Assembly: GCF_017094485.1 (NCBI RefSeq)
Contig: NZ_CP064786.1
Location: 2,670,788 to 2,734,787 of the forward strand
Source of the DNA: Natranaeroarchaeum sulfidigenes
GTDB lineage: Archaea > Halobacteriota > Halobacteria > Halobacteriales > Natronoarchaeaceae
DNA: 64,000 nt
Direction of reading: 5' to 3'
The position numbers and the translations under genes were made by a program. The notes beneath the pieces were generated by a model. The model made no database searches. It was not told the DNA's origin and worked only from the letters and a program-made list of their open reading frames with translations. This document shows positions 3,446-26,595 of this stretch, piece by piece (positions within the stretch are counted from its first letter, which is position 1; each line of letters begins with the position of its first letter).

Positions 3446-3688
3446 CGTCTCCCCGGTTGGCCGCAGTTCCGGAAATATGTCCGGTGTTCTGCCATACTCA
3501 GTAGTACAACAGCGTTCCCCATTGGTGGTTCGCTAAATTATTGAGGGTTTAATAGCGAACGCGGACCGGTCGAGTGGCCGAGTCGGTCGGTGGATCGTAA
3601 ATAAAACAGGTTACAATGCATCGGCGTAACGTGCAGATCCCGTTATATGTTGGTAACACTTTTGAGCACGTACGCCTTTCTCCCCGGT
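3446..3688. promoter_or_regulatory. Divergent intergenic region upstream of the HTH_10 regulator
   Basis: AT-rich DNA between two divergent genes. TTTAATAGCG near 3549-3558 and AATAAAACAGG near 3599-3609 look like archaeal TATA elements. The rightward regulator starts at an ATG at 3689, so the region probably carries promoters for both genes. No open reading frame here is convincing. Confidence 0.35.
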
Positions 3689-4315
3689 ATGACGACCGAG
3701 GACGGGCAGACGAGTCACACTCTCTACGTCGAGTTCGAGTTGAGCTCGGTCGCAGACGTAGAATGCCCCCTGGAGGCATTCGGAGAGGAGGAGGTGACAC
3801 GTGTCACACAACAGTCCCTCGGTGACGATTGTCACGTCGACACGACCCTCGAAACCGACGACGGCGAGACGGAGATCGTTCACAGTACGGCCACGATGGG
3901 TGAGGACTGTCACTGTCCCGTCTTTCTCGAGTTCGATTCGATCCCGGAGATCATCGAGGTCCAGGAGGAGCACGTCGTCGTCAGGACACATCTCGCGGAT
4001 CGAACGCAGCTCGCGGCGCTGGTCGACGAGCTGAAAGCGGTTACCGGTCGCCTCGCATTGCGACGACTCGTTCGCACGGACGCCACCGAGGCTGACCAGC
4101 CCCGACAGACGTCACTTGATCTATCGGAGCTGACCGAGACGGAGCGGGCTACCGCAGCCAAGGCAGTCGCCAGAGGGTACTACCGAACGCCCAGAGAGAC
4201 GACCATCGGAGAGCTCGCGACAGAGGCTGGCATCTCCGATTCGGCGATGTCACAGCGTTTGAGCGCGGTCGAGTCGAAGCTGGCACTTGCCGCCTTTGCG
4301 GATACTGTCGGGTGA
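3689..4315 (+). CDS. HTH_10 (bacterio-opsin activator/DmsR-type) regulator with Cys/His N-terminus
   Basis: The C-terminal half (about residues 139-190) is an HTH_10 DNA-binding domain, with the usual segment ARGYYRTPRETTIGELA followed by GISDSAMSQRLSAVESKL. The N-terminal half has cysteine and histidine residues at C26, C48-H49 and C74-H75-C76, suitable for sensing metal or redox state. DmsR, a known member of this family, controls DMSO respiration. Here the gene converges on an NrfD/Fe-S pair, so local control of those genes is likely but inferred. The ATG at 3689 was chosen over an upstream TTG. Confidence 0.85.
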   Translation: MTTEDGQTSHTLYVEFELSSVADVECPLEAFGEEEVTRVTQQSLGDDCHVDTTLETDDGETEIVHSTATMGEDCHCPVFLEFDSIPEIIEVQEEHVVVRTHLADRTQLAALVDELKAVTGRLALRRLVRTDATEADQPRQTSLDLSELTETERATAAKAVARGYYRTPRETTIGELATEAGISDSAMSQRLSAVESKLALAAFADTVG

Positions 4316-4377
4316 TGGGGCTGTTCGGTTCGTGCGCGAATGGAGACAGAGAAGTCGTCGGCCAGAAACGGAGCCAC

Positions 4378-5385
4378 TCAGAAGATCGGGACGTTCAGCG
4401 CCGCATAGAGGATCGACAGACGGAGGAATAGCCCGCCGATCAGGACGAAGCCAAACTTGGAGCCGTATGCCGCGCGCCCGACCAGCCCGTCGACGTGGGT
4501 GCCACGGCGGTGCAGGAGGATGAGCGTCCCCGAAATCAGAAGCGGGAGCAGCAGTCCGACCACCACGACGAAGCCCCAGAACTCCAGCATGAACGTCTGG
4601 GTCAACAGCTCGTAGCTCGCGGTAGCGGTGCCACCTGCACCGGCGAGATACCACAGCAGGGCAGCGAGTACACCAATCTCCCCGAGGATCACGGCGTCGT
4701 CAGCGAGACTGAACTCGTGAACGCCGGTGTCATCGACACCGAGCAGCAGCGTCGGTACGAGCGCCGTTGCGCTGATACCCATCGAGATGCCGCTGGTGAG
4801 AAAGAGCAGCGGGAGCAAGATCGGATGCCAGAGCGGGACAACCGGAGCGACCGCGCTGAGCAGCAGTGCGGTGTACACGATCAACGTCACTGCGAGGGCT
4901 CCGCCGACGATGTGGAGTGCAAGCCGGGTATCCGTGGCCGGACGGGTCCGGTCGACGATCTCGTCGATCGGGCCGAGATCGAGGCCAAACCCGCCGTCAC
5001 GACCGAAGCCGAGCCAGGCGAGCTGTGCCAGTGCCGCGACGACAAACAGGATAATCACCCAGACGCCGATGGCCATCCACGATTCGATGTTGGTGAACAG
5101 CCACAGCTCGATCGCGTTGAGCGGTTCGCCCAGGTGGAACAACAACAGCAGGCCGCCAAGCGAGATCGCGGCGAAGCTAACGACCATTCCGCCCAGCGCG
5201 GTGAGTCCATACGCCCTCGATTTCGTGTCGGTGCGATCGAAGCCAGGGACGCCGCCGCTCTCCGATCGCTGGCGGAGGTAGTCCGCGGCCGCGCCAGTCA
5301 GGTACGCTCCCCCGGAGATCCCACCGAGGAAGAGGTACGCTCCGATCATCCAGTCCCAGAACAGCGCCGGTGAGTCGTGTATCAT
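4378..5385 (-). CDS. nrfD: NrfD/PsrC-family integral membrane quinone-interacting subunit
   Basis: A very hydrophobic 335-aa protein with about eight or nine membrane spans. The first span holds the family-typical segment LFLGGISGGAYLTGAAADY. NrfD/PsrC proteins exchange electrons between membrane quinone and an Fe-S subunit. The Fe-S partner lies 17 bp upstream on the same strand, so the two form an operon. No molybdopterin, cytochrome or other catalytic subunit accompanies them, which is unusual. The direction of electron flow cannot be told from the sequence. Confidence 0.88.
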   Translation of the reverse strand: MIHDSPALFWDWMIGAYLFLGGISGGAYLTGAAADYLRQRSESGGVPGFDRTDTKSRAYGLTALGGMVVSFAAISLGGLLLLFHLGEPLNAIELWLFTNIESWMAIGVWVIILFVVAALAQLAWLGFGRDGGFGLDLGPIDEIVDRTRPATDTRLALHIVGGALAVTLIVYTALLLSAVAPVVPLWHPILLPLLFLTSGISMGISATALVPTLLLGVDDTGVHEFSLADDAVILGEIGVLAALLWYLAGAGGTATASYELLTQTFMLEFWGFVVVVGLLLPLLISGTLILLHRRGTHVDGLVGRAAYGSKFGFVLIGGLFLRLSILYAALNVPIF

Positions 5386-5402
5386 TGATGTATCCTCCGT
5401 AG

Positions 5403-6524
5403 TTATTTTGCCGTGGGCTCGCTCAGTCCCATGTCGTCGTAGGTAACCGGACCGGGCACCTGTGCGGTTTCGACGTCCTCGGGGTTGTCACCGATGTAGG
5501 TGACTTTCGGGTTCGAGGCGTCGGTCCGGAGCTTGAACGTCTCCTCCTCGTCGAACTGATCGAGGTACTGGTTCGGATCGCTGTCCTCGTCGTTGAGATC
5601 GCCAAAGTGGATGGCGTCGACCGGACAGGCATCCTCACACGCCGTCGACTCCTGGTGGCCCTCGCCCTGCTCGCGATGCGAACAGAAGGTACACTTGCTA
5701 CAGGAGCCCTCCGGTGGCGGACCGGAGACCCAGCGATCCTCGTCGTCGCGGGGCTCGCCGACGAACTCGACGCCGTCGGGCTGCTCCGAGAAGACGAACT
5801 CGTTGACGTGGTACGGACACGCGACCTCACAGTACTTGCAGCCGAGACAGATGTCGTAGTCACAGAGCACCCGCCCGTCCTCGCTGTAAAACCGCGAGTT
5901 GTTGGGACAGACGCTGACACACGGTGCGTCCTCACAGTGCATACAGGGCCGCTGCATCGCTTCGACCTGATCTTCCTCGTCGTCGCTCGTGTACTCGCGG
6001 TCCTCACGCTGGTAGCGGAAGACGTCCATCCAGAAGTCGCCCTCGTGAGTGGCGTTTTCCTCCTTGCAGGCCTCGACACACTGGAGACATTTGATACATG
6101 CTTCCGTATCGAGGACCATCCCGACCTTCCGCCCCTCGTCGTCGCTCGTTTCCTCCGCAACGACCGTATCGTCGCCGGAGCCGACACCGAAGCGCGTGCT
6201 CGCGTCTCGGAATCCCGCCCCGCCGGCAGTCGCAACACCGGCGGCCATCCCGAGAGCCGCCAGCACGGAGCGTCGGGACTTCGATTTCCCGCCGAGCGCT
6301 TGCTCTTTGACGTTGATTTCCGAGTACTCGGGGACGTCGAGGTCGAACTCGTCTTCGACCGCCTCCCGGTAGCGCTCGTGGAACTCGCCTTCCGCGAGTT
6401 CGCCGTTGCTCACACGCCGCGCGTCGCGGCTCATTTGCTTTGCAAGCTCCGTGTCGTACTCGACGTCGTCGAGAAGGTTTGCAGCGCGGTCCTCGATATC
6501 GTCGTGAGAGTCGTCGGGTATCAT
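5403..6524 (-). CDS. Four-cluster 4Fe-4S ferredoxin subunit (NrfC/PsrB/DmsB type) with internal Tat-like motif
   Basis: A 373-aa electron-transfer subunit. Cysteines that would bind four [4Fe-4S] clusters are visible at 143-146-149-153, 194-197-202-206, 226-229-232-236 and 275-278-(281)-296-300. Residues 1-80 form an acidic helical domain, then a twin-arginine-like segment SRRSVLAALGMAAG starts at residue 83. The Tat motif is therefore preceded by a long N-region, and it is unclear whether it is cleaved or acts as an anchor. It is cotranscribed with the NrfD subunit. The role is inferred as electron transfer between quinone and an unidentified partner. Confidence 0.88.
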   Translation of the reverse strand: MIPDDSHDDIEDRAANLLDDVEYDTELAKQMSRDARRVSNGELAEGEFHERYREAVEDEFDLDVPEYSEINVKEQALGGKSKSRRSVLAALGMAAGVATAGGAGFRDASTRFGVGSGDDTVVAEETSDDEGRKVGMVLDTEACIKCLQCVEACKEENATHEGDFWMDVFRYQREDREYTSDDEEDQVEAMQRPCMHCEDAPCVSVCPNNSRFYSEDGRVLCDYDICLGCKYCEVACPYHVNEFVFSEQPDGVEFVGEPRDDEDRWVSGPPPEGSCSKCTFCSHREQGEGHQESTACEDACPVDAIHFGDLNDEDSDPNQYLDQFDEEETFKLRTDASNPKVTYIGDNPEDVETAQVPGPVTYDDMGLSEPTAK

Positions 6525-6779
6525 GGCGTTTCTGTCTCCATAGATGATCGGTCGTGATGATCGATGCTCGCAACCGGATGAAGATCCACCCGGCCGGCGT
6601 CCTATTACAATAGTACATACGGACAGTTCCCCGATTTGAATGCCGCTTGATACTGAAGTTCTTTAAGTGACACCGGGATACAGCACGACGACACCCGGGT
6701 CTGGTCTGGCCCCGGGACCGTTTCACGAACTGGGAGCGAACAGCACACTTATTGCCTGTTTCGAGTAATCCGTGATACG
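6525..6779. promoter_or_regulatory. Divergent promoter region between Fe-S/NrfD operon and HTH regulator
   Basis: A 255-bp region between divergent genes. For the rightward gene, CTTATTGC at 6748-6755 sits 25-32 bp before the ATG at 6780, as expected for a leaderless archaeal transcript. AT-rich stretches near 6602-6616 and 6655-6668 could serve the leftward operon. Confidence 0.45.
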
Positions 6780-7427
6780 ATGACCGAGCGTTCCCCTTCC
6801 GCCGCTGATGGGTCGACGCCGACTGATGGGCTTCGCACGACGGTCGATACCGTTGTCGCCGCCGGACAGCTGCTCGCTGATCCTCGCAAGTGCCGGATCT
6901 GGCACGAGTGCTGGCTGCAAAACGGCCTCGACGTGAAAGAACTCGCCAGTACCGTGTCGATCCCACAGAGCACGCTGTACAACCTCACCAAAGAGATGGT
7001 CACGGAGGGGAGCCTCTACGAATCCGGGGCGGCGACCGGCCGATCGACGGTGTACAAACCGGTCTCGATGCAGATTTTCGTCTCCGAACATCCGGAGGGG
7101 ATCGGACCCCAGTTCAATATTCACGGGACGCTCATCGGCGTGGTCGGCGCTGGCACCTATTCCGAGGACGTCGAGACGTTTCTGGACCGGAACAGCTACA
7201 CGATGCTCGTCGAGACGATCACCGGCGTGTTGGCACTGCTGAGCGACGATGATCCGTCGGAAACCAGCGCCCACGAACTCGTCGATGGGCTTCGACCAGT
7301 CGATGCGCAGCTGGTCCAGGGTCATATCGCGGCGGTCCTGAAACGGGAAACCGAGCTGGATAAACTCGGGCTGACGTTCCCGAAGAATCCGGTGATCCAG
7401 CCGATCGAAACGCCCGCTCCCGAGTAG
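6780..7427 (+). CDS. Haloarchaeal winged-helix regulator, 215 aa
   Basis: The N-terminal half contains a winged HTH: LDVKELASTVSIPQSTLYNL is the probable recognition helix region, followed by a wing with GAATGRSTVYKPV. The C-terminal half (about 110 residues) is a separate ligand or oligomerisation domain without a recognised fold. Position suggests control of the divergent Fe-S/NrfD operon, the downstream ABC operon, or both. Confidence 0.75.
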   Translation: MTERSPSAADGSTPTDGLRTTVDTVVAAGQLLADPRKCRIWHECWLQNGLDVKELASTVSIPQSTLYNLTKEMVTEGSLYESGAATGRSTVYKPVSMQIFVSEHPEGIGPQFNIHGTLIGVVGAGTYSEDVETFLDRNSYTMLVETITGVLALLSDDDPSETSAHELVDGLRPVDAQLVQGHIAAVLKRETELDKLGLTFPKNPVIQPIETPAPE

Positions 7428-7469
7428 TTCGAGGGGATGCTTCTCACCCGGCGAGAACTCGACTGCATC

Positions 7470-7477
7470 TTTATTTG
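7470..7477 (+). promoter_or_regulatory. Probable TATA box of the ABC importer operon
   Basis: TTTATTTG at 7470-7477 lies about 27 bp before the ATG at 7504, the spacing expected of a haloarchaeal leaderless transcript. No operator repeat is obvious around it. Confidence 0.5.
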
Positions 7478-7503
7478 CCGTTACAAGAAATCTGTTACCA
7501 GCA

Positions 7504-8724
7504 ATGCAAAATAACTCGACCAACGGGCTGGATCCCCGAGGCCGTGAGAGACGTTCGGGCCCGGACCACCGTTCCGGCGTCACTGCATCGCGTCGTCGCT
7601 TCCTCGCTGCAGGGAGCGGAGCCGCACTCGCCGCGACTGCCGGTTGTTTGTCGATGCTTCGGGACGATGGCGACGTAGTAACGTTCGGGACGCTCCCGAT
7701 CGCTGCAGTTGCGGAGATACATCTCGCAGAGGAACGTGGCTACTTCGAGGACAGGGGGATCGATCTGGAGATCGAACGGGTCACCGGCGCACCGCAGGCG
7801 GTACCACAGCTCGCGTCCGGGGAGCTGGATGTGGCGAGCGGTTCGATCGGCGCAAGTATCTTCAACTCGATCGCACAGGACGTCCCTGTCCAGATCGTCG
7901 CGGACCAGACCCAGTGGTGGGAGAACCAGCCCTCCGGAAACCGGATCTGGGTCAGGGAGGAACTGTACTCCGATGGGATGGCGCTGTCCGATGTCGAGGG
8001 GACGCCGACAGTAGCGATCAACGGCGAAGGGGGATCGATGGATTACGTGGTCGGCCGACTGCTCGCCAGCGAAGGGATGGGCTGGGCCGACATCGAGATC
8101 ACGGAGATGCCGTTCCCGGACATGATCGGCGCGATGGCGGGGGGCGAGATCGATCTCTGTTCGATTCCGGACCCGCTCGGCCTGCAGGTCGCCTCGGAGG
8201 CCAACGCCGGACAGCTACTGTACGGATCGGAAGTCGCGCCACGAATGCAGATCGCGGGATACTTTTACGGCCAGCCGTTCATCGAGGAGCGTCCGGCGGT
8301 CGCGCGTCGATGGCTGGAGGCGTATCTGCTCGGCGTCAGGGAGTACTACGAGATGGGCGGCTTTCCAGACGAGGAGCTGGCCGGAATCATCAGCGACGCG
8401 ATCGACGTCCCGGTCGGGGCGATCCGCTCGTCGATCCCATCGCTCCCACACAAAAACGGGTTCGTCAACGTCGACAGTATCATGCGACAGCAGGAGTACC
8501 ACGCCTGCCGGGGGTACGTCGACGAGACCGTCGAGGCCGAGGCGATCGTCAACGAGTCGATTCTCGACGAGGCGCTGGCGGAAGTCGGCCGACTCGACGA
8601 GGCGGAAGCAACGCCGTCGGTAGCGAACATCGAGGAGTGGAGCGAGTCGGCACCCGCTCCGTACCCACCGCTCGGGGACATGACGCCGCCGTCGGAGTTC
8701 CCGACCGACGCGATCTGCGAGTAG
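7504..8724 (+). CDS. ABC transporter substrate-binding lipoprotein, NMT1/SsuA/TauA type
   Basis: A 406-aa extracytoplasmic binding protein of the NitT/TauT class. Seen: twin-arginine signal RRRFLAAGSGAALAATAGC with lipobox cysteine at about residue 48, then a two-lobed body beginning VVTFGTLPIAAVAEIHLAEE. Family members bind nitrate, sulfonates, taurine or pyrimidine precursors; which of these applies cannot be told. It is first in an operon with an ATPase (gap 31 bp) and a permease. The C-terminal 40 residues are rich in Pro and Glu. Confidence 0.9.
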   Translation: MQNNSTNGLDPRGRERRSGPDHRSGVTASRRRFLAAGSGAALAATAGCLSMLRDDGDVVTFGTLPIAAVAEIHLAEERGYFEDRGIDLEIERVTGAPQAVPQLASGELDVASGSIGASIFNSIAQDVPVQIVADQTQWWENQPSGNRIWVREELYSDGMALSDVEGTPTVAINGEGGSMDYVVGRLLASEGMGWADIEITEMPFPDMIGAMAGGEIDLCSIPDPLGLQVASEANAGQLLYGSEVAPRMQIAGYFYGQPFIEERPAVARRWLEAYLLGVREYYEMGGFPDEELAGIISDAIDVPVGAIRSSIPSLPHKNGFVNVDSIMRQQEYHACRGYVDETVEAEAIVNESILDEALAEVGRLDEAEATPSVANIEEWSESAPAPYPPLGDMTPPSEFPTDAICE

Positions 8725-8755
8725 GTAACCGACACGGCACCGAGGACGACCGATA

Positions 8756-9562
8756 ATGATGCCCGAACCGACAGCCGACCGAACCGAGCCCCGGATCAGC
8801 GTCAGCGACGTCAGCAAGACGTACCGGAGCCGGTCCGGAGCGGTCCGCGCTCTCAGCGACGTGCAGCTGCGGGTGGAAGACAGGGAGTTTTTCTGTATCG
8901 TCGGCCCGTCGGGCTGTGGGAAGTCGACGCTCCTCCGACTACTGGGAGGGCTTCTCGACAGTGATGAGGGCACCATCGAGATCCGGACCGGCGATGCGGA
9001 CCGACCGACGACGAACATGGTGTTTCAGGAGTACGGGATCTTTCCGTGGAAGTCCGTCATCGACAACGTCGCGTTCGGGCTCAAAATGCAGGGCGTTCCC
9101 CGGGAGGAGCGATACGAGACCGCCAGACGGTACATCGGAAAAGTCGATCTCGACGGCTTCGAGGAATCGTACCCACATCAGCTCTCCGGCGGGATGAAAC
9201 AGCGGGTCGGCATCGCCCGCGCGTTCGCGAACGATCCCGAGGTGTTCCTGATGGACGAACCGTTCGGCGCGCTCGACGCCCAGACCAAGGGGTTTCTCGT
9301 CGAGGAACTGCTGGAACTCTGGAACGAGTCGACAAAGACGGTCGTCTACGTCACCCACGACATCGAGGAGGCGATCCGACTCGGTGACAGAATCGGCGTG
9401 ATGTCGGCTCGCCCCGGTCGAATCAAGGAAGTAATCGATGTCGACCTGGAACGACCACGTGGCCGGACGGAGATCCCGCTCGAACGACTCGACCGGCTCG
9501 AAGAGCGGATCTGGTCGTCGTTGAGCGGCGAGGTCGAGCGATCGATGCACGGGCGGTCGTGA
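8756..9562 (+). CDS. ABC transporter ATP-binding protein, NitT/TauT type
   Basis: A 268-aa nucleotide-binding subunit. Walker A GPSGCGKST is at about 50-58, the Q-loop region is FQEYGIFPWKSV as in SsuB/TauB/NrtD proteins, and the signature LSGGMKQR is at 143-150, followed by Walker B VFLMDEPFGALD. It would power the neighbouring permease, and perhaps also the second orphan permease at 14.8 kb, which has no ATPase of its own. The stop codon overlaps the alternative GTG start of the permease. Confidence 0.93.
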   Translation: MMPEPTADRTEPRISVSDVSKTYRSRSGAVRALSDVQLRVEDREFFCIVGPSGCGKSTLLRLLGGLLDSDEGTIEIRTGDADRPTTNMVFQEYGIFPWKSVIDNVAFGLKMQGVPREERYETARRYIGKVDLDGFEESYPHQLSGGMKQRVGIARAFANDPEVFLMDEPFGALDAQTKGFLVEELLELWNESTKTVVYVTHDIEEAIRLGDRIGVMSARPGRIKEVIDVDLERPRGRTEIPLERLDRLEERIWSSLSGEVERSMHGRS

Positions 9563-10317
9563 CCATGTACGTCCGTCGGCTCCTGTTAAACGTCGCGCCG
9601 ATCGTCAGTGGCCTGCTCCTCTGGGAGCTACTGGCCCGGCTGGCGCTGATCACTCCACAGTTCTTCCCGCCGCCGACCGTCGTGCTCGACGCCGCATACA
9701 CCGAGATCGTGCATGGTGAGATGCTCTACCACTTCGGCGTCAGCCTTCGCCGGATCGTCCTTGCGTTTGCCATCGGTGCATCGACCGGCGTCGTCGCCGG
9801 GTTGCTCATGGGCTGGTCCAGACAGGTCCGACTCGTGTTGAACCCCTACGTCGGTCTCCTGTACCCGGTGCCGAAGATCACGCTGTTGCCGATCTCGTTT
9901 GCCCTGTTTGGCGTCACCGAGACGGCGAGGGTGGTGACGATGAGCCTCGCCGTCTTCCTGCTGGTGTCAGTCAGTACCATGGGGGGTGTCAGAGCGATCG
10001 ATGACGTCTATATCGACGCTGCGATCGACAACGGGGCCGGCACCATCGATCTGTATCGGGAAGTGTTGCTCCCCGGCGCGCTGTCACAGACCGTGTCCGG
10101 GCTGAGCCTGGGCTTTGGAATCGGCTTTATTTTGATCGTCGTGATCGAGATGGTCGCCGCCGACGCCGGGCTCGGATACGTCATCTGGAACTCCTGGCAA
10201 CTGTTTACGATCCCACGACTGTACGTCGCACTGATGTTGATCAACGTCATCGGGATCGTCTTCGTCTACGGCATCGAGGCCGCAGGTGATTACCTGACGC
10301 CCTGGGAGGGCCAGTAG
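9559..10317 (+). CDS. ABC transporter permease, NitT/TauT (SsuC) type
   Basis: A 252-aa membrane protein with about six spans. The EAA loop that contacts the ATPase is visible as AAIDNGAGTIDLYREVLLPG. A GTG at 9559 overlaps the ATPase stop; the in-frame ATG at 9565 is equally possible. The operon order of binding protein, ATPase and permease is complete. A paralogous permease at 14829 shares the PTIL/PTVV start and the EAA loop and may pair with this one as a heterodimer. Confidence 0.9.
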   Translation: MTMYVRRLLLNVAPIVSGLLLWELLARLALITPQFFPPPTVVLDAAYTEIVHGEMLYHFGVSLRRIVLAFAIGASTGVVAGLLMGWSRQVRLVLNPYVGLLYPVPKITLLPISFALFGVTETARVVTMSLAVFLLVSVSTMGGVRAIDDVYIDAAIDNGAGTIDLYREVLLPGALSQTVSGLSLGFGIGFILIVVIEMVAADAGLGYVIWNSWQLFTIPRLYVALMLINVIGIVFVYGIEAAGDYLTPWEGQ

Positions 10318-10378
10318 ACGAATCTCACGGACTGAGAACCCAGACAACACCTAATTATACCACCGGCATAGGGGACGT

Positions 10379-10909
10379 ATGAACAGCCAGGAATCGACTG
10401 ACACTGCGGAGGGTGAGGGGTCCGGCGACGAGGCCGAGCGAGACGACACACAACTGGAGTTCGAGGACTCCGTCACGATCGACGCCGGAAAAGAGGAGCT
10501 CTGGGGGTTTATTTCCGAAGCGCAGAATCTCGCCCAGTGTATTCCCGGCGCGGAATCGGTCACCAGGGAGACGGAACGCCGGTACACCTGTGAGGTCACC
10601 CGCGGAATCAGCAAGATGACGATCTCGATCGACGGCGAACTGGAGATGGTCGAGATGAACGAGCCGGACTGGATCGTCGCCGACGGGGAGGCGTTCGATT
10701 CGACGACCGGAAGTCGGTTCGACGTGCTCGCCGCGATGGAGATGAGCGAGGTCGAAGGCGATCGAACGGAGCTGGCGTATACGGCCGAGCTATCCTACTC
10801 CGGCGGGGTCGCCTCGCTCCCGAAACTCGTCGTGCGGAAGGCGGTCACGTCGGATCTCAACAGCTACTTCGAGAACATCAGAACGGAGATCGAACCCGAA
10901 CGCGAGTAG
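10379..10909 (+). CDS. CoxG-like SRPBCC-family protein
   Basis: A 176-aa protein whose residues about 25-170 resemble CoxG, a START-like SRPBCC fold. The typical segment is ELWGFISEAQNLAQCIPGAESV. In aerobic CO dehydrogenase loci CoxG takes part in attaching the enzyme to the membrane, but no coxSML genes are present here. It sits directly after the ABC operon and converges with the tandem ferredoxin gene (4-bp gap). Binding of a hydrophobic ligand or assistance to an Fe-S partner are both possible. Confidence 0.8.
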   Translation: MNSQESTDTAEGEGSGDEAERDDTQLEFEDSVTIDAGKEELWGFISEAQNLAQCIPGAESVTRETERRYTCEVTRGISKMTISIDGELEMVEMNEPDWIVADGEAFDSTTGSRFDVLAAMEMSEVEGDRTELAYTAELSYSGGVASLPKLVVRKAVTSDLNSYFENIRTEIEPERE

Positions 10910-10913
10910 CGGA

Positions 10914-11759
10914 TCAGGGTTCGGTATCGAGCGTAAAGTCGTCGCGAGGCTGGGCGACGCAGGTCAGTAGCTGTCCGTCCTCGACCTCTTCCTCGGACAG
11001 GTAGTCGTTGCCGTCCATCTCGACCACGTCGTTGGCATCACCATCGACTTCTGCGACACACTGCCCACAGACGCCGACCTCGCACTGGTATGGCAGATCC
11101 CATCCCTCGTCCAGTGCCGGGTACAACAGTTCCTCGTCTTCTGGGACATTAAGCGTCGTCCCACCAGTGTCGTGACCGAGATATTCTACCGCAAACGTCT
11201 GTGCCTCCTCGACATCATCGAGTGGACTGTCGCCCTCGTCCGGGCGTTCGTCCATGCTAAAGTCAGCGCGCGGCTCGGCGACACAGGTGAGGAAGGCTCC
11301 GTCTTCGATCTCCGAGTCGTCGAGATACTCGTTGCCGTCCATCTCGACCACGTCGTTGGCATCTCCATTAACCTGCGCAACACACTGTCCACAGGTTCCT
11401 ACCTCACACTGGTACGGAAGATCGAGATCGGCATCCAGTCCGGCATCAAGGATAATCTCGTCTTCGGCAATATCGAGCGTCTCTTCGTTTCGGAGGAACT
11501 CCAGTTCGTATGCGAGCGCCTCCTCGCCGTTTTCCTCACCGTTTTCATCAGCGTCTTCGGAGACGAAGTTCTCCTGGCTGTCGTCCTCGCCGGTATCGAA
11601 CAGCCCGGCACAGCCAGCGACTGCCGCCGTGCTACCCGCAGCCAGCGCAGTGAGTACCCGTCGTCGACGAGCGTTGGTATCGGCGTTAGGACAGTTCGTA
11701 CAGTCTCCGGCCGCTTCGGAATCACAATCAACCGCTTTGTCAGTACCTCTTTTGCTCAT
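10914..11759 (-). CDS. Tat-exported lipoprotein with two tandem [2Fe-2S] plant-type ferredoxin domains
   Basis: A 281-aa exported electron carrier. Seen: an N-terminal segment with C12, C20 and C23, twin-arginine RRRRVLTALAAG at 31-42, lipobox cysteine C50, a Glu/Asp/Asn linker to about residue 80, then two ferredoxin domains. Cluster ligands are C118, C123, C126, C159 and C226, C231, C234, C267, with identical CX4CX2CX32C spacing and near-identical surrounding sequence, so the domain was duplicated recently. The ATG at 11759 was chosen; a GTG at 11783 would add eight residues. A double ferredoxin on the outer membrane face is rare. It is likely to work with the neighbouring exported lipoprotein. 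Confidence 0.85.
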   Translation of the reverse strand: MSKRGTDKAVDCDSEAAGDCTNCPNADTNARRRRVLTALAAGSTAAVAGCAGLFDTGEDDSQENFVSEDADENGEENGEEALAYELEFLRNEETLDIAEDEIILDAGLDADLDLPYQCEVGTCGQCVAQVNGDANDVVEMDGNEYLDDSEIEDGAFLTCVAEPRADFSMDERPDEGDSPLDDVEEAQTFAVEYLGHDTGGTTLNVPEDEELLYPALDEGWDLPYQCEVGVCGQCVAEVDGDANDVVEMDGNDYLSEEEVEDGQLLTCVAQPRDDFTLDTEP

Positions 11760-11871
11760 ACCTAGCCGTTGTGTCGTATTCACTACAGGGCTCGGGTGTA
11801 ATATACACGGTATTATAAGGGTGGAGACAGTGGATAGCGTCGCGTGAAGCTGACGAAACGGTTGTCTGGGA

Positions 11872-12834
11872 TTATATTATCTCGATCTCGGACGCGGAGA
11901 CCCCGACATTGTAGAACACACCCTCATTCGTTACCTCGACAGTGTACTCGACCGTTCCTTCTTCTGCATCATCTGGAATAATCCAGCCGGCGTCCCACTC
12001 GTCGTCATCCCAGTCGTCCTCGTCTTCCGTGCCGAGCTCCACGGTATCGAACCCGTCAACGTCGACGGTAACCTCGTCAAGGGTATCCGGACCAACCATC
12101 TCTCCGGTCGTCCCGTCGTAGACGCCGACCTTGAATACAGCCTGCATGCCCGGGCGGAACTGGTTTTGTGGCGCACACGCCTGTGCAAAACCGTTTGCGT
12201 CGTCCGGAATCTCTTCGGAACCGGCCCAAACATCATCGGTAACGACGTAGTTTCGTGGGTCATCACCTTCGATTACTTCCAGCTCACCCTGGTAGATGCC
12301 GACGTTTTGATACTGCCCCTCGTTCGTTACCTCGACGACGTACTCGACCGTGCCGGGATCCTGGTCGTCGGGGATCATCCAGTTGCCGCTCCACTCGAAC
12401 TCGTCGTCCTCGCCTTCCTCGCCGTGCTCGAGCTCGACGGTGTCGTCTCCAATTTCGACGACTGCCTCGTCGACGGTCTCGTTGTCGACGGGATCGCCGG
12501 TTTCGGGGTCGTAGATTCCGATCTTGAACACCGCCTGCATGCCGGGCATGAACTGGCGCGTCGGCGAACACGACTGGGCAAAGCCCGTGTCCGGCGCACC
12601 GGCGGAGCCGGCGATCAGGTCGTCCGTGACCACGTAGTTGAGGACCTCGTTTTCCTCGTCACCGTTCTCGTCATCGTTTGCCGCGCCGTTTTCGTCACCG
12701 TTCTCGTCGCCGTTGTCGTCGCCAGTACAGCCGGCGACAGCAACGGAGGCGAAGGCTGCGCCACCTGCTGCCATCACGCGACGGCGGGACGCACTCATTC
12801 GGTCATCAGCATCGTCGGTCGGGGTAGGTACCAT
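11872..12834 (-). CDS. Tat-exported lipoprotein with two copies of a one-cysteine beta domain
   Basis: A 320-aa secreted protein. The twin-arginine segment is ASRRRVMAAGGAAFASVAV with lipobox C36, followed by a (GDENGDEN) acidic linker. Two copies of a domain of about 125 residues follow (about 63-187 and 195-320). Each has YVVTDD, then GFAQ-x-C, then F-x-PGMQAVFK-x-G-x-YD, and ends with an EVTNEG segment. One cysteine per copy (C89, C220) is conserved, which could bind a metal or a heme. I do not recognise the family. It is in the same orientation as the tandem ferredoxin gene 112 bp downstream. Confidence 0.75.
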   Translation of the reverse strand: MVPTPTDDADDRMSASRRRVMAAGGAAFASVAVAGCTGDDNGDENGDENGAANDDENGDEENEVLNYVVTDDLIAGSAGAPDTGFAQSCSPTRQFMPGMQAVFKIGIYDPETGDPVDNETVDEAVVEIGDDTVELEHGEEGEDDEFEWSGNWMIPDDQDPGTVEYVVEVTNEGQYQNVGIYQGELEVIEGDDPRNYVVTDDVWAGSEEIPDDANGFAQACAPQNQFRPGMQAVFKVGVYDGTTGEMVGPDTLDEVTVDVDGFDTVELGTEDEDDWDDDEWDAGWIIPDDAEEGTVEYTVEVTNEGVFYNVGVSASEIEII

Positions 12835-13320
12835 TGTAGTTCTACTGTATACCCTCCATTACTAATAAAACCGCATCATTTCCGCAGATTGAGAATACCA
12901 CTTCTCCATTATGAGTTTCTGATTACAAACAATTTGTAATTTGGTCGTTCGTGAGCAGACCTATCGGACCCCCGATATCACCGTTGAGAGCCGTTCATAC
13001 CGGGATTCTCGAAAATCGGATACTGTATTACAAAATCAAGTCATACGAAAAACCGACAGTAATCATCTACAATCATCGGCCAGTTCTACATACGTATTAT
13101 TTTATTGTTATCTTTGTCACGGCCCAAGAGCCGTTGGGAGTCCGCGGTCTCAGGTCCGAACCTGGATCACGCAAAACCGGTCGCACATACGGATACGTAC
13201 AAGAATACGGTAGAGCAGGGACACGAACTATCGTTCGTCGACCGTCGCAGCGTCGTTAAAAAATCCTTATTTGTGAAGGCAGAGTTATAGGGAACTGCCG
13301 GTAAACAGTAAACTAGAACA
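12835..13320. promoter_or_regulatory. 486-bp AT-rich divergent promoter region
   Basis: Non-coding and clearly richer in A and T than its surroundings. On the minus strand TTTATTAG near 12860-12868 lies about 28 bp before the lipoprotein start. On the plus strand AGTTATAG at 13282-13289 and CCTTATTTG near 13265-13273 precede the ATG at 13321. TATTATTTTATTG near 13095-13107 is a further AT-rich run. Reading frames in the region lack coding character. Confidence 0.45.
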
Positions 13321-14766
13321 ATGACAGAGAAGGGAGATGGAATTACGTCGACGCTGCGGGACACGTTCGAGGAACATCGGCGTGGGCGTCAGGACCAGTC
13401 AACCAACCTGACGGTGACGCCGGAGGCGGGCTACGTCGGTGACGAGATCACGATCGAGGGCTCATCGTTGCCCGAAAACCAGGGCTTCGAGCTGATCTGG
13501 CACTCCGTCAGAGGTCGGTGGGGCGTGATCGAGGGCAACGAGATTCACGGCCCACAGTATCAGCCACGGACCGAACAGATCGCGACGGTACGGACGAACG
13601 CCAGCGGCGAGTTCAGCCAGCGCTGGGAGATCCCGGAAGACTACGGCGGGGACCACACGATCGAGCTCCGGACGAGCGATGGCAACACGCTCGCTGAAGC
13701 CGAGTTCTCCGTGACCGCGTGGTTCGAGATCGATCGGACGACCGCCGAACTCGGCGAGACGTTTACCGTCGTCGGCTACGGACTCGGGCCGGGCGTCGAG
13801 CGGAGCAACTACCAGATCGCCTGGGACAACGGGATGGTCGGGTTTATCACCGGTGTCGTCAATCGCGGTACCGCCACGGCGGAAGTCCGTGCTGTCGGTC
13901 CGCCGGGCGAGCACGTCCTGCAGGTCTGGCGGAACTATCGGGGCGTTCCGTTCCTGCAGAACAACACACAGTCGCCGTTTGGCCCGGTCGCGGGTGAACG
14001 CCAGTCTACGTGGACGGTCGAGGTTACGGAACAGAGCGCCACGCCGGACCCCTACTGGGTGGATCCGATGTACGACGAGGAGGCTCTGGGCGTCCATCTG
14101 CCCGACCCCGATCGGGAGACGGACGCACAACTCGAGATCAGCCCGACGTCCGGACAGGCCGGTGACACGGCGACACTCTCAGGGAAGGCGTTCCCAGCCA
14201 ACACCGAGATCGATCTGGTCTGGTACTCACACGGCGGCCACCGCCCGCTCGATATCGATATCACGCCGAACGCCAAGCCCGAGATACTACCGACGGTTAC
14301 GACTGACGAGAACGGCGGGTTCGACCACGAGTTCACGATCCCCAACGAAATGGGGGCGACCCGTCCGATTATGGCGGAGATCGACGGCGAGTCGGTCGCC
14401 GTGACGGGCTTTATGATGCAGCCCAAGATCGTCGATATGTCCCCGACCAGCGGTCCGGTCGGAACCGAGATCGAGTTCGAGGTGACCGGTATCGGTTGGC
14501 CGCTCTACGAGAACGCCTACCATTTCGTCTACGACAACAAGCCACTTGGCTACATCTGCAGTCTGGACGAGGAAGACGGTATCCTTCGGACGAAGCTCCG
14601 GGCGACCGGTGAACCCGGCTACCACTTCATCGACGTGTACCCGAGCCTGTTCGAGACCGAGACCGACGAGCCGAACTTCACGACGAAACCCCATCTCTCG
14701 TACTGGGACAACCATCCAGTGCGACCACTGCCAGCACTGCACTTCGCGTTCGAGATCACCGAGTAA
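13321..14766 (+). CDS. Multi-domain Ig-like (IPT/TIG-like) protein without signal peptide, 481 aa
   Basis: Four predicted beta-sandwich domains at about residues 28-130, 130-236, 268-372 and 373-481. Each starts with a pattern such as PTSG-x-VGTEIEFEV or PEAGYVGDEITIEG, as in IPT/TIG folds. There is no signal peptide, Tat motif, lipobox or membrane span. That is odd for such folds and suggests either a cytoplasmic scaffold or export together with a partner. The aromatic-rich segments WRNYRGVPFLQNN and the conserved tryptophans may mark a binding face. It lies 62 bp before the second permease on the same strand. Function unknown. Confidence 0.75.
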   Translation: MTEKGDGITSTLRDTFEEHRRGRQDQSTNLTVTPEAGYVGDEITIEGSSLPENQGFELIWHSVRGRWGVIEGNEIHGPQYQPRTEQIATVRTNASGEFSQRWEIPEDYGGDHTIELRTSDGNTLAEAEFSVTAWFEIDRTTAELGETFTVVGYGLGPGVERSNYQIAWDNGMVGFITGVVNRGTATAEVRAVGPPGEHVLQVWRNYRGVPFLQNNTQSPFGPVAGERQSTWTVEVTEQSATPDPYWVDPMYDEEALGVHLPDPDRETDAQLEISPTSGQAGDTATLSGKAFPANTEIDLVWYSHGGHRPLDIDITPNAKPEILPTVTTDENGGFDHEFTIPNEMGATRPIMAEIDGESVAVTGFMMQPKIVDMSPTSGPVGTEIEFEVTGIGWPLYENAYHFVYDNKPLGYICSLDEEDGILRTKLRATGEPGYHFIDVYPSLFETETDEPNFTTKPHLSYWDNHPVRPLPALHFAFEITE

Positions 14767-14828
14767 GCTCGGATCGATCACGCGCCGTCGTGCAGTCCTT
14801 TCGAACCATCCGTACCGCGAGACACCTG

Positions 14829-15602
14829 ATGAACCGAGACACGCTGTACCAGGCGCTTTCCGTCGGGGTACTGGTTGGTCTCTGGCAACTGGTTCTGCAT
14901 CTCGAACTCGTGCATGCGGCCGTGCTTCCCGCACCGACAACGATTCTGGCGAGTACCGTGGCGTTGCTGGGCGACGGGGAGTTTCTGCGACACTTCTCGA
15001 CGAGCATGACACGTACCGTCGTTGCCGGGGGAGTTGCGGTGATGAGTGGGACGGTGATCGGGCTGGCGATGGGGTGGAACACGACGGTACGTGCGCTGTT
15101 GCAGCCGCCGATTTCGGCGCTGTACCCACTGCCAGTGATCGCGTTGCTTCCGCTTCTGGTCCTCGCGTTCGGATCGAGCGAGACCGCACTCGTTTTTACC
15201 GCTGCGTTCGGCGGGTTCTTTCTCGTCGTCTCGAACGCGAAAAACGGTGCAACAAGAATCGAGCAGGTGTATCTCGATGCGGCGCGAGATAACGGTGCAA
15301 CATCCACGTACCAGCTCTTTCGGGAAGTGTTGCTACCGGGGTCGTTGCCGCTGCTTTTCACCGGCGTTCGCCTCGGGGTGAGCACGTCGTTTCTGATCGT
15401 GATCTCGGTCGAACTGATCGCCGGTGGCGAAGGGCTCGGCTATCTGATGTGGGTTGCATGGAACACGTACGCGCTCGAGGAGCTCTACGGGACGATCGTT
15501 GTGATCGGCCTCGTCGGCGTCGCGATCACGTACGGACTGGAGTATCTCCAGCACCGACTCGTGCCATGGACCGGTGGCTCGACCGGGGGTAGTTTCATTT
15601 GA
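14829..15602 (+). CDS. Second NitT/TauT-type ABC permease, without its own ATPase
   Basis: About 257 aa with six predicted spans and an EAA loop AARDNGATSTYQLFREVLLPG. The ATG at 14829 was preferred to a GTG at 14790. It is related to the permease at 9559-10317 over its whole length. No ATPase or binding protein lies next to it, so it probably uses the ATPase at 8756 either as a separate channel or as half of a heterodimer. Both uses are inferences from gene content. Confidence 0.88.
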   Translation: MNRDTLYQALSVGVLVGLWQLVLHLELVHAAVLPAPTTILASTVALLGDGEFLRHFSTSMTRTVVAGGVAVMSGTVIGLAMGWNTTVRALLQPPISALYPLPVIALLPLLVLAFGSSETALVFTAAFGGFFLVVSNAKNGATRIEQVYLDAARDNGATSTYQLFREVLLPGSLPLLFTGVRLGVSTSFLIVISVELIAGGEGLGYLMWVAWNTYALEELYGTIVVIGLVGVAITYGLEYLQHRLVPWTGGSTGGSFI

Positions 15603-16095: not shown

Positions 16096-16791
16096 TCAGT
16101 CGTCGGCAGAAACACCCGCGGACACTGACCTACGGGGACCGGCAATATCCTCGGTCTGGAGTAATCCGACTACCAGCTTCGATGCGACAGCGTTGAGTCG
16201 CTGTGAGGCCGCGGACTTCGAGATATCGAGTTCGTTGGCGACAGCACCGAGGTCTGCCTGTCGCGGCGTCTCGTAGTAGCCGAGTTCGTAGGCAGTGCGG
16301 ATGGCCTCGCGTTGCTTGTCGGTGACCGGCGCATTGGTGAGTTGCGAGCCGTCGCAGTCGTCCGTACTGAGATCGACAAGGCGCTGGAGACGAACGGTCG
16401 CGCCGGTGTCCCGCAGATCAGTGATGATGGCGCGGAGTTCATCGCGGCCGTGAATCGTGACCGAAAATACGAGCTCTCCGTTCTGCACACACTCGATCTC
16501 GGAGACACAGGAGTGGTTACGAAACGTCCGACAGACACACCGACTCGTGACTTCCTTGGTGAGAAACTGCGGACCATCCGGACCGTCTCGCGAGGCTACT
16601 TCCGCGTGACATTCACAGGACTGATCGGGACAGTCGCCGTCAGGACAGGACAGCGACTGACGAATACTGCTGGTGGTGGTAGCCGCCGAAAGTAGCTCAC
16701 ATCCCGCGCTCGAGGGGGGCTCGACGCGGAGGCGCGCACGGAGCGTATCAACATCCCCAAGGTTGGTGTCCGCGCTATGGGCTGCAGTCAT
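16096..16791 (-). CDS. HTH_10 regulator with ten-cysteine N-terminal domain
   Basis: The C-terminal part is an HTH_10 domain: REAIRTAYELGYYETPRQAD followed by ELDISKSAASQRLNAVASKL. The N-terminal 105 residues hold nine of the ten cysteines (C31, C49, C54, C59, C61, C85, C87, C95, C101), enough to bind zinc or an Fe-S cluster. This points to sensing of oxygen, redox state or metal. It lies just upstream of fixABCX in the direction of transcription and next to the redox cluster, so those are the likely targets. The sensor role is inference. Confidence 0.83.
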   Translation of the reverse strand: MTAAHSADTNLGDVDTLRARLRVEPPSSAGCELLSAATTTSSIRQSLSCPDGDCPDQSCECHAEVASRDGPDGPQFLTKEVTSRCVCRTFRNHSCVSEIECVQNGELVFSVTIHGRDELRAIITDLRDTGATVRLQRLVDLSTDDCDGSQLTNAPVTDKQREAIRTAYELGYYETPRQADLGAVANELDISKSAASQRLNAVASKLVVGLLQTEDIAGPRRSVSAGVSADD

Positions 16792-16895: not shown

Positions 16896-17204
16896 TCAGC
16901 CGTAGCTGTAGGTCACGCCGGAGCCGTTCTCGGGGTACGTCCAGACGACGTTGTTGTGCGGGCAGGCGAACCGACAGCTACTGCACTCCAGACAGTTCTC
17001 GTAGGCGATGTGCGGGACGCCGTCCTCGCCTTCCCGCCAGACGTCGGCCGGGCAGACGTCGACGCAATCGTCGGTTCGACAGCGTTCTTCACAGATACCG
17101 GGCACCTTGACATCAAGGTGGGACTCGCCGGGGTCCTCGTACTTGACGGTGTACAGCCGGTCTTCGAGCGATGCGTTGTCGACGGAGTTCTGTTTCGTGC
17201 TCAT
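16896..17204 (-). CDS. fixX: Ferredoxin-like protein FixX
   Basis: A 102-aa ferredoxin of the FixX type, last gene of the fixABCX operon. Cysteine motifs are ICEERCRTDDCVDVCPADVW and CLECSSCRFACPHNN, which bind one or two Fe-S clusters. FixABCX complexes take electrons from NADH and pass them by bifurcation to quinone and to a low-potential acceptor. The start ATG overlaps the fixC stop (ATGA). Confidence 0.93.
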   Translation of the reverse strand: MSTKQNSVDNASLEDRLYTVKYEDPGESHLDVKVPGICEERCRTDDCVDVCPADVWREGEDGVPHIAYENCLECSSCRFACPHNNVVWTYPENGSGVTYSYG

Positions 17205-18565
17205 GAGGTCATCACCTTGCGGTAGCGCCAGGCCAGTTTTGCCGCGCCGCTCCAGCCGCCGATGGTCTGGAGGATCCGGTCTTTCGCGTCGTCTGCGTGC
17301 TCTGCCTTCGGGTCACGGTCGATGCTGAAGTACTCCTCGCTGGCGTCGGCGATCGCCCGCGGCAGATCACGGAAGAGGAGGTCTTTGTCTTCGACTGCAG
17401 TCTCCATCAGCCACTCGTAGCGTTCGAGATTCTGAACGACAAAGGAGTCTTCCAGGTTCCGTGGATACTCCAGCAGTGCGTTCGCGTCGGTTCGATCGTT
17501 GGCCATCGCCGTGATGATCGCGTTCCCTGCGTGGTAGCCGCTCTCGACCGCCATGTTCGTCCCTTCGAGGTGGACGCCGTTGTTCAGGACGAGTCCAGCA
17601 GTATCCCCGACCAGTACCGCGCCGTCGTGGACGAGGTCCGGCATGGCGTCGGCACCACCCTCCGGGATCGTCTTCGCGGAGTACTCCACAGTGCGACCGC
17701 CGCGTACCAGTGGTGCGACCGCCGGATGGGACTTGAATTCGTTGAGCGTCTGCTCGGGCTTTGGCTGGCTTGTCACCGCGTCCTCGATGCGGTAGGCAAG
17801 CCCGATGCTCACCGTGTCGTCGTTGGTGTAGATGAACGCGCCGCCGAAGGCGTCGCCGACGGCACCCTCGCCGAAGTAGTGATACGATGCGCCCGAGTCC
17901 TCGGTCAGTCGGAACCGGTCCTCGATCTCGTTGCCATCGCCGGGGAACTCGATGACCTCCTTGACCGCCACGGCGACATCTTCGCGTGGCGATGGATCCT
18001 TGAGGTCGGCCCCCTCTGCGACGAGGGAGTTGCCACCTTCAGCGAGTACGACGACCGGGGCGCGGAGTTCGCCCTCCGGGCGATCGGTGTCGACGCCGAC
18101 GATCCGTCCGTCGTCCTCGCGGATGAGGTCGGTCACCGTCGTCTCGGTGATCAGGGTTGCACCCGCTTCGACTGCCTGCTCGGCGAACCACTCGTCGAAG
18201 TCCCCGCGCAGGACCGTGTAGGAGTCGTTGTGGGGCTCCTGGTGCCACTGGTTGGGCTTGACCGAGACGGCGGTCTCGTCCTCGGGCGAGAGCATGCCAA
18301 AGCGTTTCTCCCCGACGTACCGTTCCAGTGGCGCGTCGTCGATGTCGGTCAGCTCCCGGATGGTCGGCGTGTACAGTACGCCACCGAAGACGTTCTTCGC
18401 GCCGGGATAGGCACCGCGCTCGATCATGATAACGTCGAGCCCGGCGTCGGCCATCGTCAGCGCCGATGCGCTCCCGGCGGGGCCTGCGCCGACGACGATA
18501 GCGTCGAACTCGCCGTCGTAGTTCGGGTCGGCTGGTGGTTTCGCTCGCTCGCTTTCCTCGCTCAT
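17201..18565 (-). CDS. fixC: Electron-transfer flavoprotein-quinone oxidoreductase FixC
   Basis: A 454-aa FAD enzyme. The dinucleotide-binding loop is AIVVGAGPAGSASALTMADAG near residue 22, and a second FAD motif GAVLVGDTAGLVLNNGVHLEG is in the C-terminal half. It accepts electrons from the FixAB flavoprotein and passes them to FixX and membrane quinone. The four fix genes overlap or abut, which supports one transcript. Confidence 0.94.
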   Translation of the reverse strand: MSEESERAKPPADPNYDGEFDAIVVGAGPAGSASALTMADAGLDVIMIERGAYPGAKNVFGGVLYTPTIRELTDIDDAPLERYVGEKRFGMLSPEDETAVSVKPNQWHQEPHNDSYTVLRGDFDEWFAEQAVEAGATLITETTVTDLIREDDGRIVGVDTDRPEGELRAPVVVLAEGGNSLVAEGADLKDPSPREDVAVAVKEVIEFPGDGNEIEDRFRLTEDSGASYHYFGEGAVGDAFGGAFIYTNDDTVSIGLAYRIEDAVTSQPKPEQTLNEFKSHPAVAPLVRGGRTVEYSAKTIPEGGADAMPDLVHDGAVLVGDTAGLVLNNGVHLEGTNMAVESGYHAGNAIITAMANDRTDANALLEYPRNLEDSFVVQNLERYEWLMETAVEDKDLLFRDLPRAIADASEEYFSIDRDPKAEHADDAKDRILQTIGGWSGAAKLAWRYRKVMTS

Positions 18566-19578
18566 GCTAGTACCTCCGCTGGGTCGTCAACGTCCTCTAG
18601 CTGTTCGACCAGCTCGGGACAGATCTCGAAGAGGTCGCCGACGATGCCGTAGTCGGCGTGTTCGAAGATCGGCGCGTTGGGATCGTTGTTGATCGCGACC
18701 ACGATGTCGCTATCGTTCATCCCTTCGATGTGCTGGATTGCACCGCTGATACCGACTGCGACATAGAGATCCGGCCGGACGTTTTTGCCGGTCTGGCCGA
18801 CCTGTCGCGCACCGTCGATCCAGCCCTCATCGACCGCCGCTCGGCTGGCGGCGAGTTCAGCGTCAAGCGCCTCCGCGAGTTCCGCGACCGGCTCGACGTT
18901 GCCCTCGACGCCGCGACCGGCAGCGACCACGCGGTCGGCATCCGTGATATCCGCGGTGTCGCCGACGTTCCGCTCGACGACTTCGGAGATCGTGTCCGCC
19001 TCCTCGACGATGACCTCGACCTCCTCGATCTCGCCCTCGTGGTCGGGGTCGGGATCGGCCGTCGCGAAGACGCCGGGGCGAATCGTCGCCATCTGCGGCC
19101 GGTGACGTTCACACTTGATCGTCGCCAGCACGTTGCCGCCGAAGGCCGGGCGGCGGGCTTCGAGGTGGCCGTCCTCGTCGATCCCAAGCTCCGTGCAGTC
19201 GGCGGTGAGCCCCGCGTACGCTGGGACTGCGACGCGGCCCGCGAAGTCCCGTCCCGTGTGGGTCCCGCCGATCAGGACGACATCGGGTTCCCGCTCCTCG
19301 ACGAGATAGCGGAACTGCTCGCCGTAGGGGTCCGCACGATATGGCTCGAAGACCGGATCGTCAGCGACAAGCACTTTGTCCGCGCCACGCTCAACCGCTT
19401 CCTCGGCCACGTCGTCCAGATCTTCCCCGATCGCGAGTGCCACGAGATCTTCGTCCAGTTCTTCTGCCAGCCCTTTGGCTTCCGAGAGTAGCTCCCAGGA
19501 GACCGGCGCGACCTCTCCGGCGTGTTCCTCGATGAACACCCAGACGTCGGAATGGTCGTCGATGTCGATGTCTGGCAT
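18562..19578 (-). CDS. fixB: Electron transfer flavoprotein alpha subunit FixB
   Basis: A 338-aa ETF alpha subunit. The FAD-binding C-terminal domain is visible as DLYVAVGISGAIQHIEGMNDSD followed by INNDPNAPIFEHADYGIVGD. It forms a heterodimer with FixA. Its start is adjacent to the fixA stop (no gap) and its end overlaps fixC by 4 bp. Confidence 0.95.
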   Translation of the reverse strand: MPDIDIDDHSDVWVFIEEHAGEVAPVSWELLSEAKGLAEELDEDLVALAIGEDLDDVAEEAVERGADKVLVADDPVFEPYRADPYGEQFRYLVEEREPDVVLIGGTHTGRDFAGRVAVPAYAGLTADCTELGIDEDGHLEARRPAFGGNVLATIKCERHRPQMATIRPGVFATADPDPDHEGEIEEVEVIVEEADTISEVVERNVGDTADITDADRVVAAGRGVEGNVEPVAELAEALDAELAASRAAVDEGWIDGARQVGQTGKNVRPDLYVAVGISGAIQHIEGMNDSDIVVAINNDPNAPIFEHADYGIVGDLFEICPELVEQLEDVDDPAEVLA

Positions 19579-26343: not shown

Positions 26344-26595
26344 TCAGAGTTCGTCGTCCTCTTCGTCATCGAGGTCATCATCTTCTTCATCCGGATCGTC
26401 TTCGGGGTCGTCTTCCGGGTCATCTTCCGGATCGTCTTCCGGATCGTCTTCTGGATCATCTTCTGGATCATCTTCCGGATCGTCTTCTGGATCGTCTACT
26501 GGCTCGTCTTCCGGGTCATCCGTACAACCTGCGAGCCCGAGTAGACCGATACTCCCCGCGATACCGACGAACGTACGCCTGTCGAGTCGTTTCAT
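26344..26595 (-). CDS. Small Tat lipoprotein with DDPE tandem repeat tail
   Basis: An 83-aa protein: twin-arginine signal RRTFVGIAGSIGLLGLAGC with lipobox, then a mature tail made almost only of about ten repeats of Asp-Asp-Pro-Glu, ending in acidic residues. The DNA is a 12-bp tandem repeat, so the length could vary between strains. After lipidation it would be a short, highly charged surface peptide. Function unknown. Confidence 0.7.
   Translation of the reverse strand: MKRLDRRTFVGIAGSIGLLGLAGCTDDPEDEPVDDPEDDPEDDPEDDPEDDPEDDPEDDPEDDPEDDPDEEDDDLDDEEDDEL
26372..26516. repeat. 12-bp tandem repeat (DDPE codons)
   Basis: About ten imperfect copies of a 12-bp unit that reads GATGATCCGGAA on the minus strand, with third-position variants in several copies. 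It keeps the reading frame of the lipoprotein gene because each unit is four codons. Confidence 0.75.

Follow-up and report, generated by a model that had tools for sequence, protein, structure and literature searches.

The window analyzed here is a stretch of 64,000 nucleotides from the haloarchaeon Natranaeroarchaeum sulfidigenes, which contains a gene (Fd2) for a predicted Tat lipoprotein with two [2Fe-2S] plant-type ferredoxin domains. By mapping the surroundings of this gene across loci, a conserved cluster was delineated. Besides Fd2, its genes encode an NrfD-family membrane protein, an iron-sulfur subunit resembling DsrO, a CoxG-like protein, a lipoprotein with duplicated Ig-like domains (DupLp), a TIG-domain protein, and an ABC importer of the NitT/TauT type that has two permeases (Table 1).

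Table 1. Features of the Fd2 locus, with positions given in the window.
Feature	Position	Strand	Basis
Second Bat/DmsR_N-type HTH_10 regulator	3647..4315	+	Sequence match
NrfD-family quinone-interacting membrane subunit	4378..5385	-	PF03916 E 8.6e-29, conserved in cluster
DsrO/NrfC-like subunit, predicted four [4Fe-4S], with Ferredoxin_N region and internal Tat motif	5403..6524	-	Profiles
NitT/TauT-type ABC importer: Tat-lipoprotein substrate-binding protein, ATPase, permease 1	7504..10317	+	Profiles, conserved
CoxG-like SRPBCC protein	10379..10909	+	PF06240 E 3.5e-20, conserved
Fd2, predicted Tat lipoprotein with two [2Fe-2S] plant-type ferredoxin domains	10914..11759	-	281-aa haloarchaeal ORF, profile matches, orthologues
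Fd2 ferredoxin domain 2, ~residues 191-281, C226/C231/C234/C267	10917..11189	-	Cysteine spacing, Fer2 match
35-nt exact repeat, domain 2 copy (GDANDVVEMDGN)	11005..11039	-	DNA comparison, codon resampling
Fd2 ferredoxin domain 1, ~residues 83-172, C118/C123/C126/C159	11244..11513	-	Cysteine spacing, Fer2 match
35-nt exact repeat, domain 1 copy	11329..11363	-	DNA comparison, codon resampling
Predicted Tat signal RRRRVLTALAAGSTAAVAGC and lipobox cysteine, residues 31-50	11610..11669	-	RR and AGC invariant in 11 orthologues
Three extra N-terminal cysteines (C12, C20, C23), not conserved	11691..11726	-	Orthologue comparison
DupLp, Tat lipoprotein with two repeated Ig-like domains	11872..12834	-	Sequence, predicted structure
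TIG-domain protein, without recognisable signal or TM segment	13321..14766	+	Profile
ABC permease 2	14790..15602	+	Conserved neighbour of TIG
Bat/DmsR_N-type HTH_10 regulator	16096..16791	-	Sequence match

A family search, as proposed in the first-pass annotation, matched Pfam Fer2 twice (E 8.5e-23; 80.5 bits against a cut-off of 21) and the plant-type ferredoxin model TIGR02008 at 103.9 bits, above its cut-off of 81.15. The score for NF041393, the model of the haloarchaeal cytoplasmic ferredoxin Fer, was 82.4 bits, below the cut-off of 150. Among the 12 cysteines of Fd2 (12, 20, 23, 50, 118, 123, 126, 159, 226, 231, 234, and 267), the last eight reproduce exactly, in both domains, the CX4CX2CX32C spacing reported earlier, and the last spacer is 32-34 residues long in the orthologues. 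A collection of 34 domains from exported or related proteins showed the CX4CX2C...C pattern without exception, so this spacing is not due to chance. The ligand cysteines of 6khi, from the solved cyanobacterial ferredoxins, align with those of domain 1, and matches also included 1doi and 1e0z, haloarchaeal ferredoxins of solved structure. Judged by profiles and ligands, Fd2 is thus a member of the plant-type Fer2 family, with its fold assigned through homology; an AlphaFold model of the mature protein, built on an alignment of three rows, had a pLDDT of 36 and was set aside.

The twin-arginine signal and lipobox that had been read from the sequence are present as predicted motifs: the signal RRRRVLTALAAGSTAAVAGC has its hydrophobic segment at residues 35-49 and is closed by the lipobox cysteine, Cys50. 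Across 11 two-domain orthologues, drawn from five families, neither the RR pair nor the lipobox AGC nor any of the eight ligand cysteines varies, which supports Fd2 as a predicted exported, lipid-anchored lipoprotein carrying two plant-type domains. The three extra cysteines preceding the signal do occur here and in the sister species and are absent from most orthologues; a special role for them was rejected, as they are not conserved and lie within the part expected to be cleaved off. Between 78% and 87% of haloarchaeal lipoproteins are predicted Tat substrates (PMC2945643), and a Tat lipoprotein is therefore ordinary in these organisms. What is unusual about Fd2 is a plant-type ferredoxin as the Tat cargo. 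Even so, the statement that plant-type ferredoxins are normally cytoplasmic has to be qualified for haloarchaea, in which predicted export appears common because single-domain versions are found in this and other genomes.

With 58-60% protein identity, and 78% DNA identity over 166 nt, the two domains are too different to be called near-identical, as they had been. The long block common to both, GDANDVVEMDGN, comes from a real exact repeat of 35 nt in the DNA, and exact runs between the domains of one gene extend to 37 nt in the orthologue at L044 and 106 nt in that at L051. Runs that long appeared in 0 of 2000 codon resamplings for each of the three genes, all based on the codon usage of the window genome, also for L044 and L051. 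As the runs far exceed this expectation, the comparison suggests that the domains have been homogenised within the gene or repeatedly duplicated, with the shared block as a trace. A single ancient duplication that left stable first and second domains was rejected by AU tests in which the first domains as a set, or the second domains as a set, were constrained to group together (p 2.9e-5 and 4e-77). A first tree, which joined the domain pair of the window with single-domain proteins, was also discarded, being dependent on root and sample. After removal of long rows, all two-domain sequences fell on one side of one branch, so that one origin followed by homogenisation accounts for the data as well as several origins. 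Both domains are under purifying selection, with dN/dS against the sister species (G046) of ~0.05 for domain 1 and ~0.06 for domain 2. In one orthologue (L045:9237-10121), domain 1 has diverged near the loop preceding the last cysteine (GYGEMGEAEF...VLPC) and is possibly under relaxed constraint.

The distribution of Fd2 was examined in 295 genomes of the host order, 74 of which contained a match at E 1e-20. Two-domain orthologues were detected in 11 of the 295, from five families (G000, G046, G263, G278, G108, G200, G012, G039, G030, G185, and G221); named carriers are Halapricum hydrolyticum and one Halobacteriales MAG, and parts of the cluster occur in Halapricum sp. CBA1109 and Haloferax marinum. 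In a sample of 394 genomes from the phylum, matches were confined to the host's own order, and no two-domain protein was found outside it.

Single-domain Tat lipoprotein ferredoxins with the X32 spacing were identified in many genomes, and their sequences indicate a related, wider haloarchaeal family. Such proteins, for example the two encoded in the host genome itself (L054 and L055), resemble Fd2 in Tat signal, lipobox, X32 spacing, and up to 65% domain identity, but have one domain and no adjoining NrfD/DsrO genes. At L054:7678-9282, in the 549 kb region of the host genome, a gene for one of these ferredoxins is divergently oriented to its neighbour, which encodes a Tat lipoprotein resembling the haem-b subunit of ethylbenzene dehydrogenase (PF09459, E 3.2e-27), and the two could possibly form another redox pair. 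Near single-domain exported ferredoxins of two families lies a membrane protein (L058:7221-7883 and L059:8266-8904, 74% identical) that matched no Pfam or NCBIfam family confidently and is haem-b-like by eye only. A proposed association of single-domain exported ferredoxins with PF16947 proteins was rejected, since the positions differ. A third type, a Fer2 protein of ~200 aa in which an N-terminal hydrophobic segment replaces the Tat signal (L058:2389-2976), is widespread in haloarchaea, and L004 was assigned to it by similarity.

Genes for NrfD and the DsrO-like subunit are clustered with the two-domain ferredoxin gene in 11 of 11 genomes. The NrfD protein is longer in G030 (435 aa) and G200 (433 aa), and the latter genome has the ferredoxin/DsrO/NrfD trio only. 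All 11 orthologues of the DsrO-like subunit contain exactly 16 invariant cysteines and the Tat motif SRRxxL, as expected for a putative outer-face relay of four [4Fe-4S] clusters. The NrfD protein and four-cluster subunit of Mo enzyme complexes (Psr, Dms, and Ttr) are therefore represented, and the Mo subunit is absent from the cluster: a search of ten genomes found no Mo catalytic subunit (PF00384) within ~13 kb, and by this measure no catalytic subunit is linked to the pair. Likewise, no gene for a multihaem QrcA or for QrcB was seen among the cluster genes, and neither Fd2 nor DupLp contains a CXXCH motif. The models for DsrO (132 bits, cut-off 200) and QrcC (93 bits, cut-off 400) were matched below threshold. 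In seven genomes with TIG and no two-domain ferredoxin, no orthologous NrfD/DsrO pair was located near TIG; one of them (L104) has a diverged 4Fe-4S protein (31%) there.

The remaining genes form a second half of the cluster, which may import a related compound. The ABC, CoxG, and DupLp genes share the contig with Fd2 in 9 of the 11 loci (the tenth, L050, ends within DupLp at the contig edge), and TIG does so in 9 of 11. The latter gene was found in 17 of the 295 genomes, and TIG, CoxG, and DupLp occur together without the redox part at L064 and L099. The two halves are separable, because G200 has no ABC/TIG part and the TIG-only genomes have no redox part. TIG-type domains are usually extracellular. 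The TIG protein of the window is highly conserved, with second copies in some genomes; inferring its function from bacterial relatives was abandoned, as the sole match, a 27% identical protein encoded on a Deinococcus plasmid, has neighbours that give no clue. CoxG proteins are able to anchor enzymes to membranes, as demonstrated in Sulfolobus (PMC11962113). DupLp, the second duplicated exported protein of the cluster, matched no Pfam or NCBIfam family; it has a conserved C-P-F-PGM motif and, in L049, three Ig-like repeats. AlphaFold predicted two beta sandwiches (pLDDT 51), and a functional assignment through Foldseek was rejected because only generic Ig-like matches with query TM-scores <0.3 were returned. 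Genes similar to the Bat/DmsR_N-type regulators also lie beside the cluster at L046, L049, L062, L063, L064, and L065.

Comparison of window positions 3647-15602 with the sister species (L042) showed a mosaic: dS was 0-0.05 for NrfD, DsrO, ABC, CoxG, TIG, permease 2, and one Bat gene, and reached 0.64 for the ferredoxin and 0.56 for DupLp, similar to more distant genes. This pattern suggests a recent exchange of the flanks, not of the ferredoxin and DupLp lipoproteins. Adjoining the cluster (16896-20367, minus strand) are FixX-FixC-EtfA-EtfB-like genes of the electron bifurcation type, named from sequence only, which are also present in the sister species; none were seen at the loci of other families. 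Positions 26344-26595 (minus strand) encode a small Tat lipoprotein that, in its mature form, consists of an acidic DPED repeat.

The sequences establish what the two domains are, that motifs for export and anchoring are present, that each domain is under constraint, and that the gene is linked to NrfD/DsrO; on these grounds, Fd2 is probably the electron carrier of an NrfD-type quinone-reacting complex. Specifically, it is proposed, with a probability of roughly 0.58, that Fd2 is an extracytoplasmic lipid-anchored carrier in an outer-face ferredoxin:quinone oxidoreductase formed with the DsrO-like subunit and NrfD. From the sequence, two Fer2 domains would sit on a Tat lipid anchor; from the Tat route, we infer that the clusters would be assembled and inserted before export, leaving Fd2 on the outer face of the membrane. 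Gene linkage points to the DsrO-like subunit as the partner on which Fd2 would dock, and this subunit would relay electrons through its four [4Fe-4S] clusters, to or from menaquinone at NrfD's quinone site. Fd2 would presumably exchange electrons with a redox partner outside, and general redox knowledge favors their running downhill from ferredoxin to menaquinone. The tethered tandem ferredoxin would then occupy the place that a Mo enzyme or multihaem cytochrome takes in other NrfD complexes. The linkage in all 11 genomes counts for this module reading. It also lends support to the suggestion in the first-pass annotation that two carriers on one anchor could bridge two partners, and the accompanying quinone module gives Fd2 an interest that it would not have as a stand-alone oddity. 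Counting against the reading, the Fd2 gene of the window lies 4.4 kb from the pair with an oppositely oriented ABC operon between them, and single-domain exported ferredoxins without an adjoining NrfD pair indicate that the family is not generally tied to NrfD.

The same linkage could reflect reversed flow or an enzyme in trans, with NrfD/DsrO oxidising menaquinol and the tandem ferredoxin feeding an exported reductase such as a Mo enzyme. Enzymes of the Mo-bis-PGD type (PF00384) are encoded elsewhere in all ten genomes checked, at 13-16 kb in G012 and G039, so that a partner in trans is possible, which also weighs against the module; moreover, the flanking Bat/DmsR_N regulators resemble those of DMSO respiration. 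Nevertheless, no Mo reductase is linked to the cluster, and because the potential of plant-type [2Fe-2S] clusters usually lies below that of menaquinone, transfer from menaquinol would be uphill unless driven. This arrangement is regarded as unlikely.

The frequent company of the ABC/CoxG/TIG/DupLp genes, and the grouping of three of them even without the redox part, would fit a role of Fd2 as electron entry or exit of a pathway in which a compound is imported and it, or its precursor, is transformed at the surface. The separability of the two halves speaks against such a role, which seems quite improbable. It is still harder to regard Fd2 as an ordinary member of the exported-ferredoxin family, in which the second domain is a neutral duplication and one domain suffices. 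Single-domain members are indeed widespread and the domains appear to be homogenised within genes, but both domains have been kept with all ligands in 11 genomes from five families and under strong purifying selection, which makes neutrality very doubtful.

The outer partners known for NrfD-type complexes are Mo enzymes, multihaem cytochromes, and hydrogenases. A review of the NrfD family lists no complex with a plant-type [2Fe-2S] protein, and the term "2Fe-2S" is absent from its text (PMC8076601). If the ferredoxin is indeed the partner, haloarchaea would be able, with no need of c-type haem, to transport low-potential electrons one at a time outside the cell, and plant-type ferredoxins would function outside the cytoplasm throughout an archaeal order. 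More tentatively, and with considerable doubt, the module might provide a haem-free path from extracellular low-potential electrons to the quinone pool, with a tandem [2Fe-2S] protein on a lipid anchor taking over from the multihaem cytochromes or Mo subunits of other NrfD complexes; such a path would possibly be used for extracellular electron exchange. The tandem domains also lend themselves to testing why both clusters are retained and by what means homogenisation within the gene maintains them.

The Fd2 system is a new combination of known parts, in which the key electron-transfer step is the one that we infer. Fd2 shares the Fer2 domain and the same arrangement of four ligand cysteines with plant-type ferredoxins (PF00111, TIGR02008; 1doi/1e0z, 6khi), but differs from them in being a predicted exported lipoprotein, in having two domains per chain, and in a last spacer of 32 rather than ~29 residues; its CxxxxCGQC motif resembles that of reductase-linked Fer2 domains, such as PaaE. 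Fer2 domains outside the cytoplasm also occur in periplasmic PaoA-type aldehyde oxidoreductases, where they are part of the enzyme, and in pectocins (4n58/8jc1, matched here), which are bacteriocins; neither is a tethered tandem carrier like Fd2. The DsrO-like 16-Cys subunit and NrfD protein resemble DsrOP of DsrMKJOP and the corresponding parts of Psr, Dms, and Nrf, but no DsrMKJ, Mo, or haem catalytic partner lies in the cluster. As the defining catalytic or multihaem subunit was sought there and not found, the pair was not classified as Psr, Dms, or Qrc. By analogy, it may work like QrcCD or DsrOP. In the case of QrcCD, a separate carrier in the periplasm supplies the electrons for menaquinone reduction (PMC6303296, PMC8076601), and the reaction is electrogenic (PMC6303296). 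Like QrcABCD of sulfate reducers, the module would join an outer-face four-cluster subunit to an NrfD-like quinone subunit, with a separate carrier delivering the electrons (PMC6303296); unlike Qrc, that carrier would be a lipid-anchored [2Fe-2S] protein.
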